Origin: Halorubrum sp. BOL3-1
GTDB lineage: Archaea > Halobacteriota > Halobacteria > Halobacteriales > Haloferacaceae
Reading direction: 5' to 3'
DNA length: 64,000 nucleotides
Assembly: GCF_004114375.1 (NCBI RefSeq)
Contig: NZ_CP034692.1
Coordinates: forward strand, 1,550,001-1,614,000
The position numbers were made by a program, and so were the translations under genes. Shown here piece after piece: positions 22,922 through 51,375 of this stretch. Each line of letters begins with the position of its first letter. The first letter of the stretch is position 1. The notes under the pieces were generated by a model. It did not search any database. It had not been told where the DNA came from and saw nothing but the letters and a program-made list of their open reading frames with translations.

Positions 22922-23182
22922 TCACCGATCGCGTCTCGTCCCGACGCGCTCGGCAACGGCGACCAACCGCGACCAGCTGTTGACGCCGGCGCGCAGCGCC
23001 ACGAGGTCGTCTGCGGTCACGCGGACGCGGACGGCGTCGCCCTCGCGGTCGACGGTCGCGGTCGAGCGGGCGTCGTCGACCTCGTCGACCTCGGGACCGA
23101 GGGCGTCGGCCACGACCCGGGCGCGCCGCTCGGAGGGGTAGGTAACGGAGAGGACCGTCTCGTGTGCGCGCGTCGCCGTCAC
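22922..23182 (-). CDS. pcc1: KEOPS complex subunit Pcc1
   Basis: An 86-aa protein of the Pcc1 fold, the dimerisation subunit of the KEOPS complex that makes t6A in tRNA. The visible signature is LSVTYPSERRARVVADALGP, followed by a beta strand (ATVDREGDAVRVRVTADDLVALRAGVNSW) and a C-terminal helix. It starts with GTG, 20 bases after rpoP, in a conserved archaeal order (L37Ae, RpoP, Pcc1, prefoldin beta). Confidence 0.88.
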   Translation of the reverse strand: MTATRAHETVLSVTYPSERRARVVADALGPEVDEVDDARSTATVDREGDAVRVRVTADDLVALRAGVNSWSRLVAVAERVGTRRDR

Positions 23183-23202
23183 GGTCCAGAATAACGGCCG
23201 CG

Positions 23203-23337
23203 TTACTCGACGTCGACTTTCTTGATGTCGCCGCCGCGCTCCTTCAGGAGGACGCGGTGGCCGCAGTACGGGCAGCGCACGCCGCCGTACTCGTCGAGGG
23301 TGACGTCGCGCTTACAGCGGGAGCACTTGTAGCTCAT
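23203..23337 (-). CDS. rpoP: RNA polymerase subunit P (Rpo12)
   Basis: A 44-aa zinc-ribbon subunit of archaeal RNA polymerase. The metal site is two CxxC pairs, [10 protein letters not shown] and [10 protein letters not shown], with the C-terminal [16 protein letters not shown]. The ATG at 23337 lies four bases after the L37Ae stop. The length and motif are standard. Confidence 0.97.
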
Positions 23338-23341
23338 CGTC

Positions 23342-23608
23342 CTATTCCTCGTCGGCGAGCGCGGCGCGGATGGAGCGGCGGACGGTGCGACCGCCGGGCG
23401 TCTCGGGGCGGTACGCGCCGCCCGTGAACGTCTCGCCGGTCTCCTCGTTGACCCAGATGCCCGTGCCCTTGCGCGTGACATCGTCGCCGTCGACGGTGGC
23501 GTTGCGCATGTCATTTTCGATGTCCTGGACCCGCTTGCGCGCGACCCGGCCGTAGCGGGCGCCGAATCGGCCCGCGCTGCCGGTGCTTCGTGCCTTGTCC
23601 TCAGCCAT
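23342..23608 (-). CDS. rpl37ae: Large-subunit ribosomal protein L37Ae lacking the zinc-ribbon cysteines
   Basis: An 88-aa protein. The N-terminus ([20 protein letters not shown]) and C-terminus ([19 protein letters not shown]) are standard L37Ae. The usual C2-C2 zinc ribbon in the centre is replaced by [19 protein letters not shown] and [12 protein letters not shown]; the translation contains no cysteine at all. It is first in an operon with rpoP, pcc1, pfdB and DUF3194. No Cys-containing paralogue is in this window. A T-rich CTTTTTACC about 30 bases upstream may be the box A. Confidence 0.93.
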
Positions 23609-23736
23609 AGTGGCTCTGTCTACCGCCAGCGCGGGTAAAAAGGCTACGAGTCTCGGCGGTCGAAGCGGCGGCAGGAAAGCGGACGCGACGGGGACGGTCG
23701 AGGTAGCGAGGATCGCTCACGAACTGACGACGCGGT

Positions 23737-24056
23737 GCGGTGGCGCGCGCCTCCGAGCGCCCGACAGGGCGCGAGGTGCGCCGCGCGAGGGAGTCGGTGG
23801 TCCGGAGCGAAGCGGAGGACCACCGACGAGGCTGGGGAGGCGTGAGGCTGCGGTGCTGTGCGGGGCGGGACGCGAAGGGGCAGTCGCGAGGACGAAGCAC
23901 GACGACGTAAGCACTGGAGAGAGCGAGCAGCGCGAGCGACTGAAGCGCGTGGTTCGGGAGGGCAAAGCTCCCTCGTCATTCCGAAAATCTCCGATTTTCG
24001 GACGACAACGAGGCGCGCGAGTCCTCGTAGCTGGGGCTTCGGTGGTCTCGGTCTCC
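23737..24056 (-). repeat. Dispersed hairpin repeat element, copy A
   Basis: This fills most of the 506-base gap between rpl37ae and thi4, oriented opposite to copy C on the other side of thi4. On the minus strand it reads head (CCACCGAAGCCCCAGC, 24028-24043), then a body with CCGCAGCCTCACGCCTCCCCAGCCTCGTC, split around the stem GTCGGTGGTCC/GGACCACCGAC (23793-23803 with 23817-23827). The second stem is GCGCCC/GGGCGC (23757-23762 with 23767-23772), and the end is GGCGCGCGCCACCGC. No gene is seen; the open frames here do not resemble proteins. Confidence 0.78.
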
Positions 24057-24090
24057 GCCACGTACTCGTCCCGACCGCAACGCCTTTCAC

Positions 24091-24102
24091 TACTAAGTAG
24101 TA
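24091..24102 (+). promoter_or_regulatory. Inverted repeat over the thi4 promoter, candidate ThiR operator
   Basis: TACTAAGTAGTA is an inverted repeat of TACTA/TAGTA with a 2-bp centre, ending 12 bases before the thi4 ATG in an AT-rich stretch that must contain the core promoter. An HTH-ThiN regulator gene lies 6 kb away. Archaeal thiamine genes are known to be repressed by ThiR proteins; binding at this exact site is inference. Confidence 0.45.
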
Positions 24103-24114
24103 TTACTAGGTTGT

Positions 24115-25050
24115 ATGAACGGGTTCAACGGCTTCGCGGACGTGAGCGAGACGGACGTGACGCGGGCGATCGGCACCGAGTGGACCGACGGGTTCCTGAA
24201 TTTCACGGAGTCGGAGGTGATCGTCCTCGGCGGCGGTCCCTCCGGGCTGATGGCCGCCAAGGAACTGGCCGAGCGCGGCGTGAAGGTGATGATAGTCGAG
24301 AAGAACAACTACCTCGGCGGCGGGTTCTGGCTCGGCGGGTTCCTGATGAACACCGTGACGGTCCGGGACCCCGCACAGGAGATCTTAGCGGACCTCGACG
24401 TCGGCTACGAGCCGGTTGACGACGTCGACGGCCTCTACACCGCTCCGGGACCGGAGGCCTGCTCCGGGCTGATCAAGGCCGCCTGCGACGCCGGCGCGCG
24501 CGTCCAGAATATGACCGAGTTCACCGACCTCGTCGTCCGTGACGACCACGAGGTCGGCGGGATCGTAATGAACTGGACGCCCGTCCACGCGCTCCCGCGC
24601 GGGATCACCTGCGTCGACCCCATCGCGGTCGAGTCCGACCTCGTGATCGACGCGACCGGTCACGACGCGGTCGCGATCAGCAAGCTCGACGAGCGCGGCG
24701 TCCTCTCGGCGCCGGGCATCGAACACGCGAAAGAACACAACACCGGCATGGACCAGACCGGTGACGGCGAGTACGGCGCCCCCGGTCACGACTCCCCCGG
24801 CCACGACTCGATGTGGGTCGGAGAGAGCGAGGACGCCGTCGTCGACCACACCGGCGTCGTCCACGACGGCCTGATCGCCTCGGGGATGGCGGTCGCGACC
24901 GCGCACGGTCTCCCGCGGATGGGTCCGACCTTCGGCGCGATGCTGGTCTCGGGCAAGAAGGCGGCACAGACCGCGCTCGACGAGCTCGGCTCGGACGCGC
25001 CCGAGGTAGAGCTGTCGGCCGGCGGCGCGCCCGCCCCCGCTGACGACTGA
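24115..25050 (+). CDS. thi4: Thiamine thiazole synthase (Thi4)
   Basis: A 311-aa enzyme that builds the thiazole of thiamine from NAD and glycine. The dinucleotide motif is [17 protein letters not shown] (about 36-52), followed by [17 protein letters not shown]. Cys166 in [15 protein letters not shown] is at the position of the sacrificial sulfur donor known from yeast and essential in Haloferax, so this is the suicide type and not the sulfide-using type. The C-terminus [21 protein letters not shown] is standard. The ATG at 24115 follows the candidate operator; the gene is flanked by two inverted repeat elements. Confidence 0.95.
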
Positions 25051-25069
25051 TAAGCGGAAAAGCAGACGG

Positions 25070-25590
25070 GTGAAACCGCGGTTGTCCGTGTGTAAATCAC
25101 CGCTGACGCCCCGGTAGCGGACCCCTCCAAAGCCCCAGCCGCTCGGTTATAAATCGTTACTGACGGATCGACAGCGAACCCCTCCAAAGCCCCAGCCGCT
25201 CGGTTATAAATCGTTACTGACGGATCGACAGCGAACACCTCCAAAGCCCCAGCCGCTCGGTTATAAATCGTTACTGACGGATCGACAGCGAACACCTCCA
25301 AAGCCCCAGCCGCTCGGTTATAAATCGTTACTGACGGATCGACAGCGAACACCTCCAAAGCCCCAGCCGCTCGGTTATAAATCGTTACTGACGGATCGAC
25401 AGCGAACACCTCCAAAGCCCCAGCCGCTCGGTTATAAATCGTTACTGACGGATCGACAGCGAACACCTCCAAAGCCCCAGCCGCTCGGTTATAAATCGTT
25501 ACTGACAGATCGACAGCGAACACCTCCAAAGCCCCAGCCGTGAGGCTGTACGATAGCGTTTCTGTTCGTAAATCGCTGATCGATACGGAC
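25070..25590 (+). repeat. Tandem array of 57-bp units (head of repeat element C)
   Basis: Eight copies of CCTCCAAAGCCCCAGCCG start at 25124, 25181, 25238, 25295, 25352, 25409, 25466 and 25523, an exact 57-bp period. The unit continues CTCGGTTATAAATCG, TTACTGACGGATCGACAGCGAACA. The first (25070-25123) and last (25541-25590) units are diverged. The units touch, with no unique spacers, so this is not CRISPR. Each unit holds a TATA-like TTATAAAT. The period is 19 codons, which creates a spurious repetitive reading frame on the minus strand. Confidence 0.92.
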
Positions 25591-25843
25591 ACCGCCGAAG
25601 CCCCAGCCGCGAGGCGGGCGTACGCTCGTTGCGTTCCTCGATCGCCCACTCCGTTCGCTCTCTGCGGTACTTACGTCGCCTGCGCCCGCCTCGCGGCTGC
25701 CCCTTCGAGTCCCACCCCGCATCGCAACCGCAGCCTCACACCTCCCCAACCTCGTCAGTCGCCGTCGCTCCGCTCCGGCGACGAACTCCCTCGCGCGTGC
25801 TGTCTCGCGGCCTGTCGGCCGCTCGCAGGCACGCGCCACCGCT
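25591..25843 (+). repeat. Dispersed hairpin repeat element, copy C
   Basis: It continues from the tandem array: head CCGCCGAAGCCCCAGCCG (25592-25609), then CTGCCCCTTCGAGTCCCACC, CCGCAGCCTCACACCTCCCC, the stem GTCGCCG/CGGCGAC (25758-25764 with 25776-25782), the stem GCGGCC/GGCCGC (25807-25812 with 25817-25822) and CTCGCAGGCACGCGCCACCGC. It is similar along its length to copy A in reverse, so thi4 is flanked by imperfect inverted copies. Together with the array it explains the 919-base gap before pyk; no gene is seen. Confidence 0.8.
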
Positions 25844-25921
25844 AATTTATTTATAATCGATCGGTTTGCTCTCATGCGCAACCGTCTCTCCGCGACCGTT
25901 CCTCACGAACGTTCACTCGGG

Positions 25922-25936
25922 AACGATTCAATCGTG
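25922..25936 (+). promoter_or_regulatory. Palindrome upstream of pyk
   Basis: ACGATTCAATCGT (25923-25935) is a perfect 13-bp inverted repeat with 6-bp arms, 34 bases before the pyk ATG. A second imperfect pair, CGTTC/GAACG, lies at about 25897-25912, and an AT-rich TTTATTTATAATC (25846-25858) is the best box A. Together they suggest a regulated promoter; the regulator is unknown. Confidence 0.4.
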
Positions 25937-25969
25937 TGTCTTTTTCAGCCATGCGTTGAACGCGACCGT

Positions 25970-27727
25970 ATGCGCAACGCCAAGATCGTCTGTACGATCG
26001 GTCCCGCCTCGGACGACCGGGACGCGATCCGCGGCCTCGCGGAGGCGGGGATGTCCGTCGTCCGACTCAACGCCAGCCACGGAACCACCGACCACCGGGA
26101 GACGGTGATCGAGCGCGCCCGCGCCGTCGACGACGAGATCGACGACCCGCTCGCGGTGATGGTCGACCTGAAGGGACCGGAGGTCCGCACCGCCGAGTTG
26201 GACGAGCCGATCGATCTCGGGACCGGCTCGGAGGTCGCCTTCGTCAAGGGCGACGACGCGACCCCGGAGCGAGTCGGTCTCACCCACTCCATCGCGGCCG
26301 CCGGGCCGGGCGACACGATCCTGCTGGACGACGGGCGGATCGAGTGTCGCGTCGAACGCGTCGACGGCGAGACCGTGGTCGCGACGGTCGTCTCCGGCGG
26401 GAAGCTGAACTCTCGGAAGGGCGTGAACCTCCCGGGCGTCGCCATCGACGTCGACCTGATCACCCCCGAGGACGAGGCCGAACTCGACCTGGCGGCCCGG
26501 ACCGACGCGGACTTCGTCGCCGCCTCGTTCGTGCGCGACGGCGATGACGTCTATCGCATCGCGGACGAGCTGGAGACCCGCGACGCCGGCGATATCCCCG
26601 TCATCGCGAAGATCGAGCGCGCGGGCGCGGTCGAGAACTTGGAGGGGATCGTCGACGCCGCCGACGGCGTGATGGTCGCCCGCGGCGACCTCGGCGTCGA
26701 GTGCCCCCTAGAGGACGTGCCCGTGATTCAAAAGCGGATCATCCGGACCTGCGTCAACGAGGGTGTCCCCGTCATCACCGCGACGGAGATGCTCGACTCG
26801 ATGGTCTCCTCGCGGCGGCCGACCCGCGCGGAGGCCTCCGACGTGGCCAACGCCGTCCTCGACGGCACCGACGCCGTAATGTTGTCCGGCGAGACCGCCA
26901 TCGGAGAGGACCCCGTGAACGTCGTCGAGACGATGGACCGGATCGTCCGGGAGGTCGAGGCCAGCGACGAGTACGCGGAGACGCGCGAACAGCGCGTCCC
27001 GACCGCGGACGAGGGGTCGCGCACGGAGGCGCTTGCGCGCTCGGCGCGCTACCTCGCGCGCGACATCGGCGCCTCGACGGTCGTCGCCGTCTCCGAGTCC
27101 GGCTTCACCGCGCGCAAGACCGCCATGTTCCGGCCGGGCGTCCCGGTCGTCGCGACCACCCCGAACGACCGCGTCCGCCGACAGCTCGCGCTCTCGTGGG
27201 GCGTCCGCCCGGTCCTCACCGAGTATGCCCACGACATGGAAGGGGTCCTCGACAACGCGGTCGACGCCGCGCTCGACCGCGGCGGCGCCGCGTCCGGCGA
27301 CACCCTCGTCGTCCTCTCCGGCATGCTCACCGAGTTCGAGGGGACGAACACGACGAACACCCTGAAGGTCCACGTCGCCGCCGAGACGGTCGTGACCGGC
27401 AAAGCGGTCGTCGCCGGTCACGTCTCCGCGCCGGTTCACCGGACCGAGGACGGCGACATCGACGCGCTGCCGGACGGGTCCGTCGTCGCGGTCGGTCCCA
27501 ACTTCGAGGGGGAGTTCTCCGGGGACCTCGACCGGATCGCCGCCATCGTCGACGCCCGCGAGGGGATGACCGGCTACCCCGCCGTCGTCGCCCGCGAACT
27601 CGGCGTGCCGATGGTCTCCGGCGCCCGCCTGCCCGAGTCGGTCGCGGACGGGACCACGGTGACCGTCGACGGCGAGCGCGGCGTCGTGTACGACGGCGAC
27701 GTGATCGCCGCCGCTCGCGAGCGGTAG
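25970..27727 (+). CDS. pyk: Pyruvate kinase with C-terminal PEP-utiliser domain
   Basis: A 585-aa glycolytic enzyme converting PEP and ADP to pyruvate and ATP. The N-terminus is MRNAKIVCTIGPAS. The catalytic lysine is Lys214 in VIAKIERAGAV, and MVARGDLGVE and TATEMLDSM are the active-site signatures. After the regular pyruvate kinase C domain, residues about 480-585 (VVAVGPNFEGEF, then GMTGYPAVVARELGVPMVSGA) form an extra mobile PEP-utiliser-like domain, as in Bacillus-type enzymes. The ATG at 25970 fits the family; an in-frame ATG at 25874 is less likely. Confidence 0.95.
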   Translation: MRNAKIVCTIGPASDDRDAIRGLAEAGMSVVRLNASHGTTDHRETVIERARAVDDEIDDPLAVMVDLKGPEVRTAELDEPIDLGTGSEVAFVKGDDATPERVGLTHSIAAAGPGDTILLDDGRIECRVERVDGETVVATVVSGGKLNSRKGVNLPGVAIDVDLITPEDEAELDLAARTDADFVAASFVRDGDDVYRIADELETRDAGDIPVIAKIERAGAVENLEGIVDAADGVMVARGDLGVECPLEDVPVIQKRIIRTCVNEGVPVITATEMLDSMVSSRRPTRAEASDVANAVLDGTDAVMLSGETAIGEDPVNVVETMDRIVREVEASDEYAETREQRVPTADEGSRTEALARSARYLARDIGASTVVAVSESGFTARKTAMFRPGVPVVATTPNDRVRRQLALSWGVRPVLTEYAHDMEGVLDNAVDAALDRGGAASGDTLVVLSGMLTEFEGTNTTNTLKVHVAAETVVTGKAVVAGHVSAPVHRTEDGDIDALPDGSVVAVGPNFEGEFSGDLDRIAAIVDAREGMTGYPAVVARELGVPMVSGARLPESVADGTTVTVDGERGVVYDGDVIAAARER

Positions 27728-51055: not shown

Positions 51056-51189
51056 ACTGGTAGGTCGATTGCGCTCGGTTTGAACGCTGTGATCGCTCGG
51101 AGAGCGGACCGTTCGGTTCCACGGCCGGGATCACCGACGGCCCGGTCGTGCGCGGTCGAGGCGAACGCGACGGCGACGGCTACCGACGC

Positions 51190-51375
51190 CCCGGCCGCTC
51201 GTTACGACGCGACTACTGCCGAGGACGCGGCCGCCGACGCCCCAGCCGCTCGGCTGTACGTGAATGCTTTCGTCGAGAGCGACTCCGTGACCGAGACCAC
51301 CGAAGCCCCAGCCGCGTCACCGGCGCTACGCGCCTCTGGCGGCCGGCGGCAGAGCCGCCGGCGACACCATCGCAC
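51190..51375 (+). repeat. Dispersed hairpin repeat element, copy E
   Basis: It lies in the 343-base gap between the Rieske and glucoamylase genes; no gene is seen. Three head motifs are present: ACCGACGCCCCGGCCGCTCG (51182-51201), GCCGACGCCCCAGCCGCTCG (51233-51252) and ACCGAAGCCCCAGCCGCG (51299-51316). The body has the stem GCCGGCGGC/GCCGCCGGC (51341-51349 with 51353-51361, loop AGA), like copy B with a different loop. The CTCGCAGGCGCG end block is missing. Confidence 0.68.

Follow-up and report, generated by a model that had tools for sequence, protein, structure and literature searches.

REP, BIME and REPIN sequences are bacterial repeats (PMC2817692, PMC3116915) that are high in copy number, extragenic and imperfectly palindromic, and that form module mosaics and tandem arrays of variable length. 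In haloarchaea, the PATEs and SMRs of Haloquadratum walsbyi (PMC3119063) are, in the part of that account considered here, transposase-free and palindrome-bearing, with small elements nested in larger ones. At the scale of a single unit, the class I intergenic repeats of halovirus HF2, a virus of Halorubrum, are 56-58 bp long, hold a TATA box and are promoters by experiment (PMC8707807), and the basal promoter of haloarchaea comprises a TATA box, a BRE, for which the consensus CGAAA is cited, and a −10 WW (PMC4983044).

Here we describe a 57-bp tandem array of Halorubrum sp. BOL3-1, contained in the 64,000-nt stretch of DNA that was analysed (the window), which very probably is the recently expanded, variable head of one copy of a Halorubrum palindromic interspersed repeat. 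This element has all the REP/BIME/REPIN properties listed above, but it is several hundred bp long, has a head of 57-bp direct repeats, is archaeal and genus-restricted, and has no REP-type short unit. With the PATEs and SMRs it shares the traits named and a haloarchaeal host; defined boundaries and strain-specific insertions were not seen in comparisons with one genome per species, no IS605-type ends were found at the one transposase locus inspected, and the same part of the PATE and SMR account makes no mention of a tandem head. The HF2 repeats resemble the unit in length, intergenic placement and internal TATA box, but they are dispersed singles rather than tandem, have a motif, TCTTTAAGTC, unlike that of the unit, and drive viral genes (PMC8707807). 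Like the basal promoter of PMC4983044, the unit has a TATA box followed at a plausible distance by an AT pair, but no co-directional gene lies ahead of most arrays and the BRE consensus was not seen upstream of the unit TATA box. No description of the element was found in the literature searched.

Results

A near-identical 57-bp array between thi4 and pyk

The array is placed between thi4 and pyk, upstream of pyk and on the same strand. The closest loci to these two genes come from named Halorubrum species, and the window is part of the 3.37-Mb contig of a genome in four contigs. TRF reported positions 25116-25540 with a period of 57, 7.5 copies, 99% matches and a score of 822, clearly the top array of the window, and direct reading located the AAGCCCCAGCCG motif eight times at 57-bp steps (25130 to 25529), with a ninth at +69 (25598). 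The first-pass annotation had described eight nearly identical units with a TTATAAAT box in every one, which holds for the seven full units at 25142-25540, five of them identical and the first and last with one substitution each, but not for the eighth, first in order and ending at 25141, which is only 70-74% identical to the others and carries TGTAAAT instead. Its observation that the window's other heads are diverged and single to triple was confirmed (12091, 24039, 44636 and 51186-51314), and its view of the array as a head of variable length attached to a hairpin body was supported. The palindromic body that follows the 69-bp last unit is ~245 bp long. Array units of this copy are of the AAAG type, whereas its last unit and body are GAAG/CTTCG-type. 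With its near-identical units, the window array is the extreme case among the arrays compared.

Table 1 Features of the thi4-pyk locus (positions in the window)
Feature	Position	Strand	Basis
Second element copy, upstream of thi4	23737-24060	−	Position and orientation common to many relatives
thi4, sulfide-dependent ADP-thiazole synthase gene	24115-25050		
Diverged head unit, thi4-proximal (TGTAAAT ... CCAAAGCCCCAGCCG)	25061-25141	+	70-74% identity to array units
Seven type-A 57-bp head units, each CTCGG-TTATAAAT-...-CCAAAGCCCCAGCCG	25142-25540	+	TRF; direct reading; genus-wide 57-bp units
Last head unit, type B, 69 bp, TTCGTAAAT replacing the TATA box; CGAAG pairs with body CTTCG	25541-25609	+	
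Palindrome 1: CGAAG/CTTCG helix, CCC/CCC internal loop, CAGCCGCGAGGCGGGCG stem	25596-25707	+	Pairing counts across copies; fold
Conserved core CCTCACACCTCCCCAACCTC	25734-25753	+	Core pattern Halorubrum-only among 293 genomes
Palindrome 2, partly degenerate in this copy	25754-25787	+	Covariation across copies
Palindrome 3, GCGCGTGC ... GCACGCGC	25793-25836	+	
Tail AT box TTTATTTATAAT	25846-25857	+	
pyk-proximal conserved sequence CACGAACGTTCACTCGG...CTTTTT, outside the repeat; likely pyk promoter/operator	25904-25945	+	18-locus alignment
pyk, pyruvate kinase gene	25970-27727		

Just 3′ of the thi4 stop, CCGCTGACG (~25098-25108) is retained in most relatives, including species without the repeat, and may be a 3′ signal of thi4 or what is left of a head unit. 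A second homogeneous array, of five 51-bp TATA-less units of which four are identical, lies elsewhere in the same genome (L213; G000, contig C3, ~1417562-1418100).

The array belongs to an extragenic element dispersed through the genome

The motif AAGCCCCAGCCG occurs exactly 100 times in the genome against 6 occurrences of the reversed control pattern, so its abundance is not due to chance. All 100 lie on the 3.37-Mb main contig C3, with none on the other three contigs (~294 kb together). Motifs are sparse on C3 past ~2.93 Mb, a region that is possibly acquired. Of 209 candidates in a first look with a body query, 40 were scored and gave 42 matches, and merging motif, body and head matches yielded 91 stretches, a few of which are without a body and may be chance matches. 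The window genome has ~90 loci, confined to the main chromosome. A full copy consists of a head of at least one unit ending in CCRAAGCCCCAGCCG, a long palindrome, the core CCTCACRCCTCCCCAGCCTCG and two further palindromes. The TATA-like tail is present in only ~1 in 6 copies, and we rejected the tail TATA box as a general part of the element.

The element is extragenic and sits mostly by the 3′ ends of genes. In the context table a single match falls inside a called gene (L251, a lone motif without a body), and the upstream gene has its 3′ end at the head in 47 of 69 elements of the window genome and in 33 of 51 arrays of other species, with flanking genes called by a simple codon-usage script and thus approximate. 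Convergent gene pairs are the most common setting in the other species (21 of 51) and divergent pairs the rarest (6), as they are in the window genome too.

Two features separate the element from REP/BIME families. The high-copy, extragenic character of these families is found here, but their short 20-60 bp imperfect palindromic unit is not, the 57-bp unit being a direct repeat and the palindromes residing in the body. Second, no partner of the REP-type tyrosine transposase (RAYT) class was found, the single PF01797 gene of the genome having no element core or true head motif nearby. Because unit anatomy and RAYT partner both differ, we do not file the element as REP/BIME; REP/BIME mosaics are the closest parallel to the way it works, yet the features tested do not place it among them. 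A Y1 transposase partner was rejected, the single Y1 transposase found in the genome not being flanked by the element, and IS605-type ends related to the element were not seen at that locus, the sole one inspected.

Small two-hairpin modules are nested in several element bodies. One type (e.g. GAGAATCGAAGATTCTCTGGCAGCCGGCGCGTAGCGCCGGCGAC; L191, L198, L254, L258, L259, L260 and L268) occurs at varying positions and in both orientations, resembling a separate REP-doublet-like family, and another (GGTTCG..hairpin..TCGTCAT..hairpin..GACGACA-like) occurs at 23940-24040 in the copy upstream of thi4 and at L181, L261 and L262.

Of 90 head spacings in the window genome (L179-L269), 83 are multiples of three (48, 51, 54, 57, 63, 66, 69 and 78), although the units do not behave as coding sequence. 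Head units that are coding repeats would have such lengths, and type B and C units are mostly stop-free in one frame, but the variation is without codon-position bias and a stop is found in each forward frame in 88-132 of 149 type A units. We rejected this reading, now extremely improbable, on the stops and the missing bias.

Unit number changes at fixed sites while the 57-bp register is kept

Of 52 Halorubrum genomes, 49 match a query made of the head array. In a search of 293 genomes of 87 genera, a strict core pattern occurred in 19, every one of them Halorubrum; no instance was found in other genera, although weaker relatives could escape so strict a pattern. Two plasmid records, one from Halobaculum, are weakly similar to the element, no DNA match was found in phage records and no viral contig with the unit pattern was found, and on these results a viral or plasmid origin was rejected.

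Across 40 arrays, each of 2 to 8 units, unit spacings are exactly 57 bp in 138 of 140 cases, the exceptions being one of 54 and one of 56 (arrays of other species plus the window array, spacings below 70 bp, the window's 69-bp last step set aside). The 57-bp period is thus a rule, not an accident. Units within an array differ by 20-26% in the two genomes analysed (mean identity 0.74-0.80), and in both of them identity is higher within arrays than between arrays (0.80 versus 0.72; 0.74 versus 0.70), as expected from local expansion.

At thi4-pyk itself, relatives carry one to four recognisable units, or remnants only, and several lack the element, while many species retain it at the same site and in the same orientation. 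Occupied and unoccupied sites thus exist between species, with flanks too diverged for clean boundaries. Of 17 pairs of orthologous sites whose flanks match on both sides, 15 also differ in unit number, in a comparison between species with one genome per species; one such pair has six versus four units between flanks that are 96-97% identical. Several pairs differ in unit type as well, with units of 51, 54, 63 or 69 bp in the window species and 57 bp elsewhere. Hence the same intergenic site is used in related species while the number and type of head units differ there, and one 57-bp unit was recently amplified to seven at thi4-pyk. The proposal of the first-pass annotation that the array expanded recently or is being homogenised thereby gained support from the near-identical units and from a unit number that varies between species, at this locus and others, rather than being constant in relatives. 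Expansion is independent of the TATA box, since 51-bp TATA-less units also expand, both at L213 and at thi4-pyk of H. tebenquichense, which holds two identical ones.

Drifting copy number and unit type, restriction to one genus and small elements nested inside bodies would also fit a neutral satellite, in which the array is slippage noise in a functionless, degenerate selfish repeat. This is a distinctly unlikely account, however, as the register persists despite the divergence of the units, the pairing of head and body is near-perfect, and site and orientation are common to many species.

Head and body pair in a manner that favours DNA palindromes

The last head unit and the body together form the pairing CRAAG-CCC-CAGCCG / CRGCTG-CCC-CTTYG. 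The R-Y position, with A or G in the head and T or C in the body, holds an A-T or a G-C pair in 165 of 167 copies (108 of 108 in a first count), and the internal loop is CCC/CCC in 102 of 108 copies. Stem positions alternate freely among C-G, G-C, A-T and T-A, and the stems are ~95-98% Watson-Crick, although covariation counts of this kind do not equal independent events, the copies sharing descent. Mismatches of the G.T and A.C types number 21 versus 22 in stem 1 (one column set aside) and 4 versus 19 in stem 2. A structured RNA of the plus strand should tolerate G.U more, so that the lack of a G.T excess over A.C favours stems that behave as DNA palindromes, as judged from sequence. The preponderance of A.C in stem 2 would equally be expected from a minus-strand RNA, an alternative that counts against a DNA-level reading. 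A search of Rfam over 23000-27000 gave no match at E<=1, and a known RNA family was rejected on that result.

The unit TATA box is conserved, yet the array is an improbable row of promoters for pyk

The TATA box of the unit is real and conserved: the central bases of TTATAA are kept in 143-147 of 149 distinct type-A units, nearly as well as the unit end motif. An AT pair follows at positions 26-27, 18 bp downstream of TATA, and A36/A37 lie 10 bp further, spacings that resemble the AT profile of Halorubrum leaderless promoters, which peaks at −30 to −26 and −11/−10 in 472 upstream regions. A promoter weight matrix built from these regions gave a modest mean best score of 6.2 versus 4.7 for shuffles, 111 of 146 units having their best site on the minus strand, and we set it aside as weak, strand-ambiguous evidence. 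Promoter activity of the units is possible on these motifs, in a direction that the evidence does not give.

Such units might promote an RNA of the element itself, a second point against a DNA-level reading. In the fullest form of this idea, tandem promoters would transcribe the body as a structured non-coding RNA, more units giving more transcription. The promoter-like spacing of TTATAA, AT and AA, the strong predicted fold of the body directly downstream of the array, and the 58-bp repeats of HF2 that proved to be promoters (PMC8707807) all speak for it, but many elements carry type B or C heads without that spacing or without TATA, the BRE consensus cited in PMC4983044 was not seen upstream of the TATA box, the best promoter score falls on the other strand in most units, plus-strand stems show no G.T excess and Rfam gave no match; we hold it to be unlikely.

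A different role, a row of promoters or TBP-binding sites driving pyk, had been suggested by the first-pass annotation. The array is upstream of pyk, on the same strand and with TATA boxes, and the element is kept at thi4-pyk in many relatives, but several others lack it there, ~430 bp with GC-rich palindromes separate array and gene, and an alignment of 18 loci shows the 85 bp next to the pyk start to be conserved whether or not the repeat is present. Within these 85 bp, CACGAACGTTYACTCGG ... CTTTTT is found in essentially all 18 loci and is likely, from its conservation, a regulator site plus promoter; the array was not found to stand in for the gene's own promoter. Elsewhere, only 18 of 51 arrays of other species face a co-directional gene, the next gene being on the opposite strand in 33 of 51. 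Given also that TATA-less units expand and that the promoter scores, modest overall, are higher on the opposite strand, we consider a role of the array as promoter row for pyk very improbable.

Discussion

Taking these observations together, we favour, with a probability of roughly 0.6, a reading in which the array forms the tandem head of an interspersed repeat that is extragenic, specific to the genus and built of several palindromes, and that serves as a DNA-level site. That the element acts at the level of DNA rather than through RNA or as a gene promoter is, taken alone, probable, whereas any specific function can be put forward only tentatively. Units would be amplified by in-register recombination or replication slippage between them, and selection acting on the DNA itself, or template switching within it, may maintain the palindromes. 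The whole element would then be a site for REP/BIME-like binding, or a topological or transcription-boundary element, in which the TATA box of each unit would be a repeated candidate protein-binding site, not part of a promoter row for the next gene. No transposase partner, binding protein or phenotype was found for the element. More speculatively, the register-locked array of one to eight or more TATA units could be a candidate platform for a TBP/TFB-like or chromatin protein beside a paired DNA palindrome, tunable by unit number, in which case such array-headed cruciforms would be a class not described before.

Extragenic palindromic repeats that form large families are known chiefly from bacteria, and the Halorubrum element is an archaeal one present in nearly all genomes searched of its genus. 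Its head holds a 57-bp period almost without indels while the sequence drifts and copy number changes at fixed sites, so that the element lends itself to testing how tandem expansion recurs in haloarchaea, of which Haloferax volcanii is described as polyploid and as having efficient gene conversion (PMC11276520). The findings also advise caution, in that TATA boxes within repeats should not be taken as promoters of the next gene. The array head is a ready VNTR marker, and the array is a candidate for an undescribed DNA-binding array of archaeal chromosomes.
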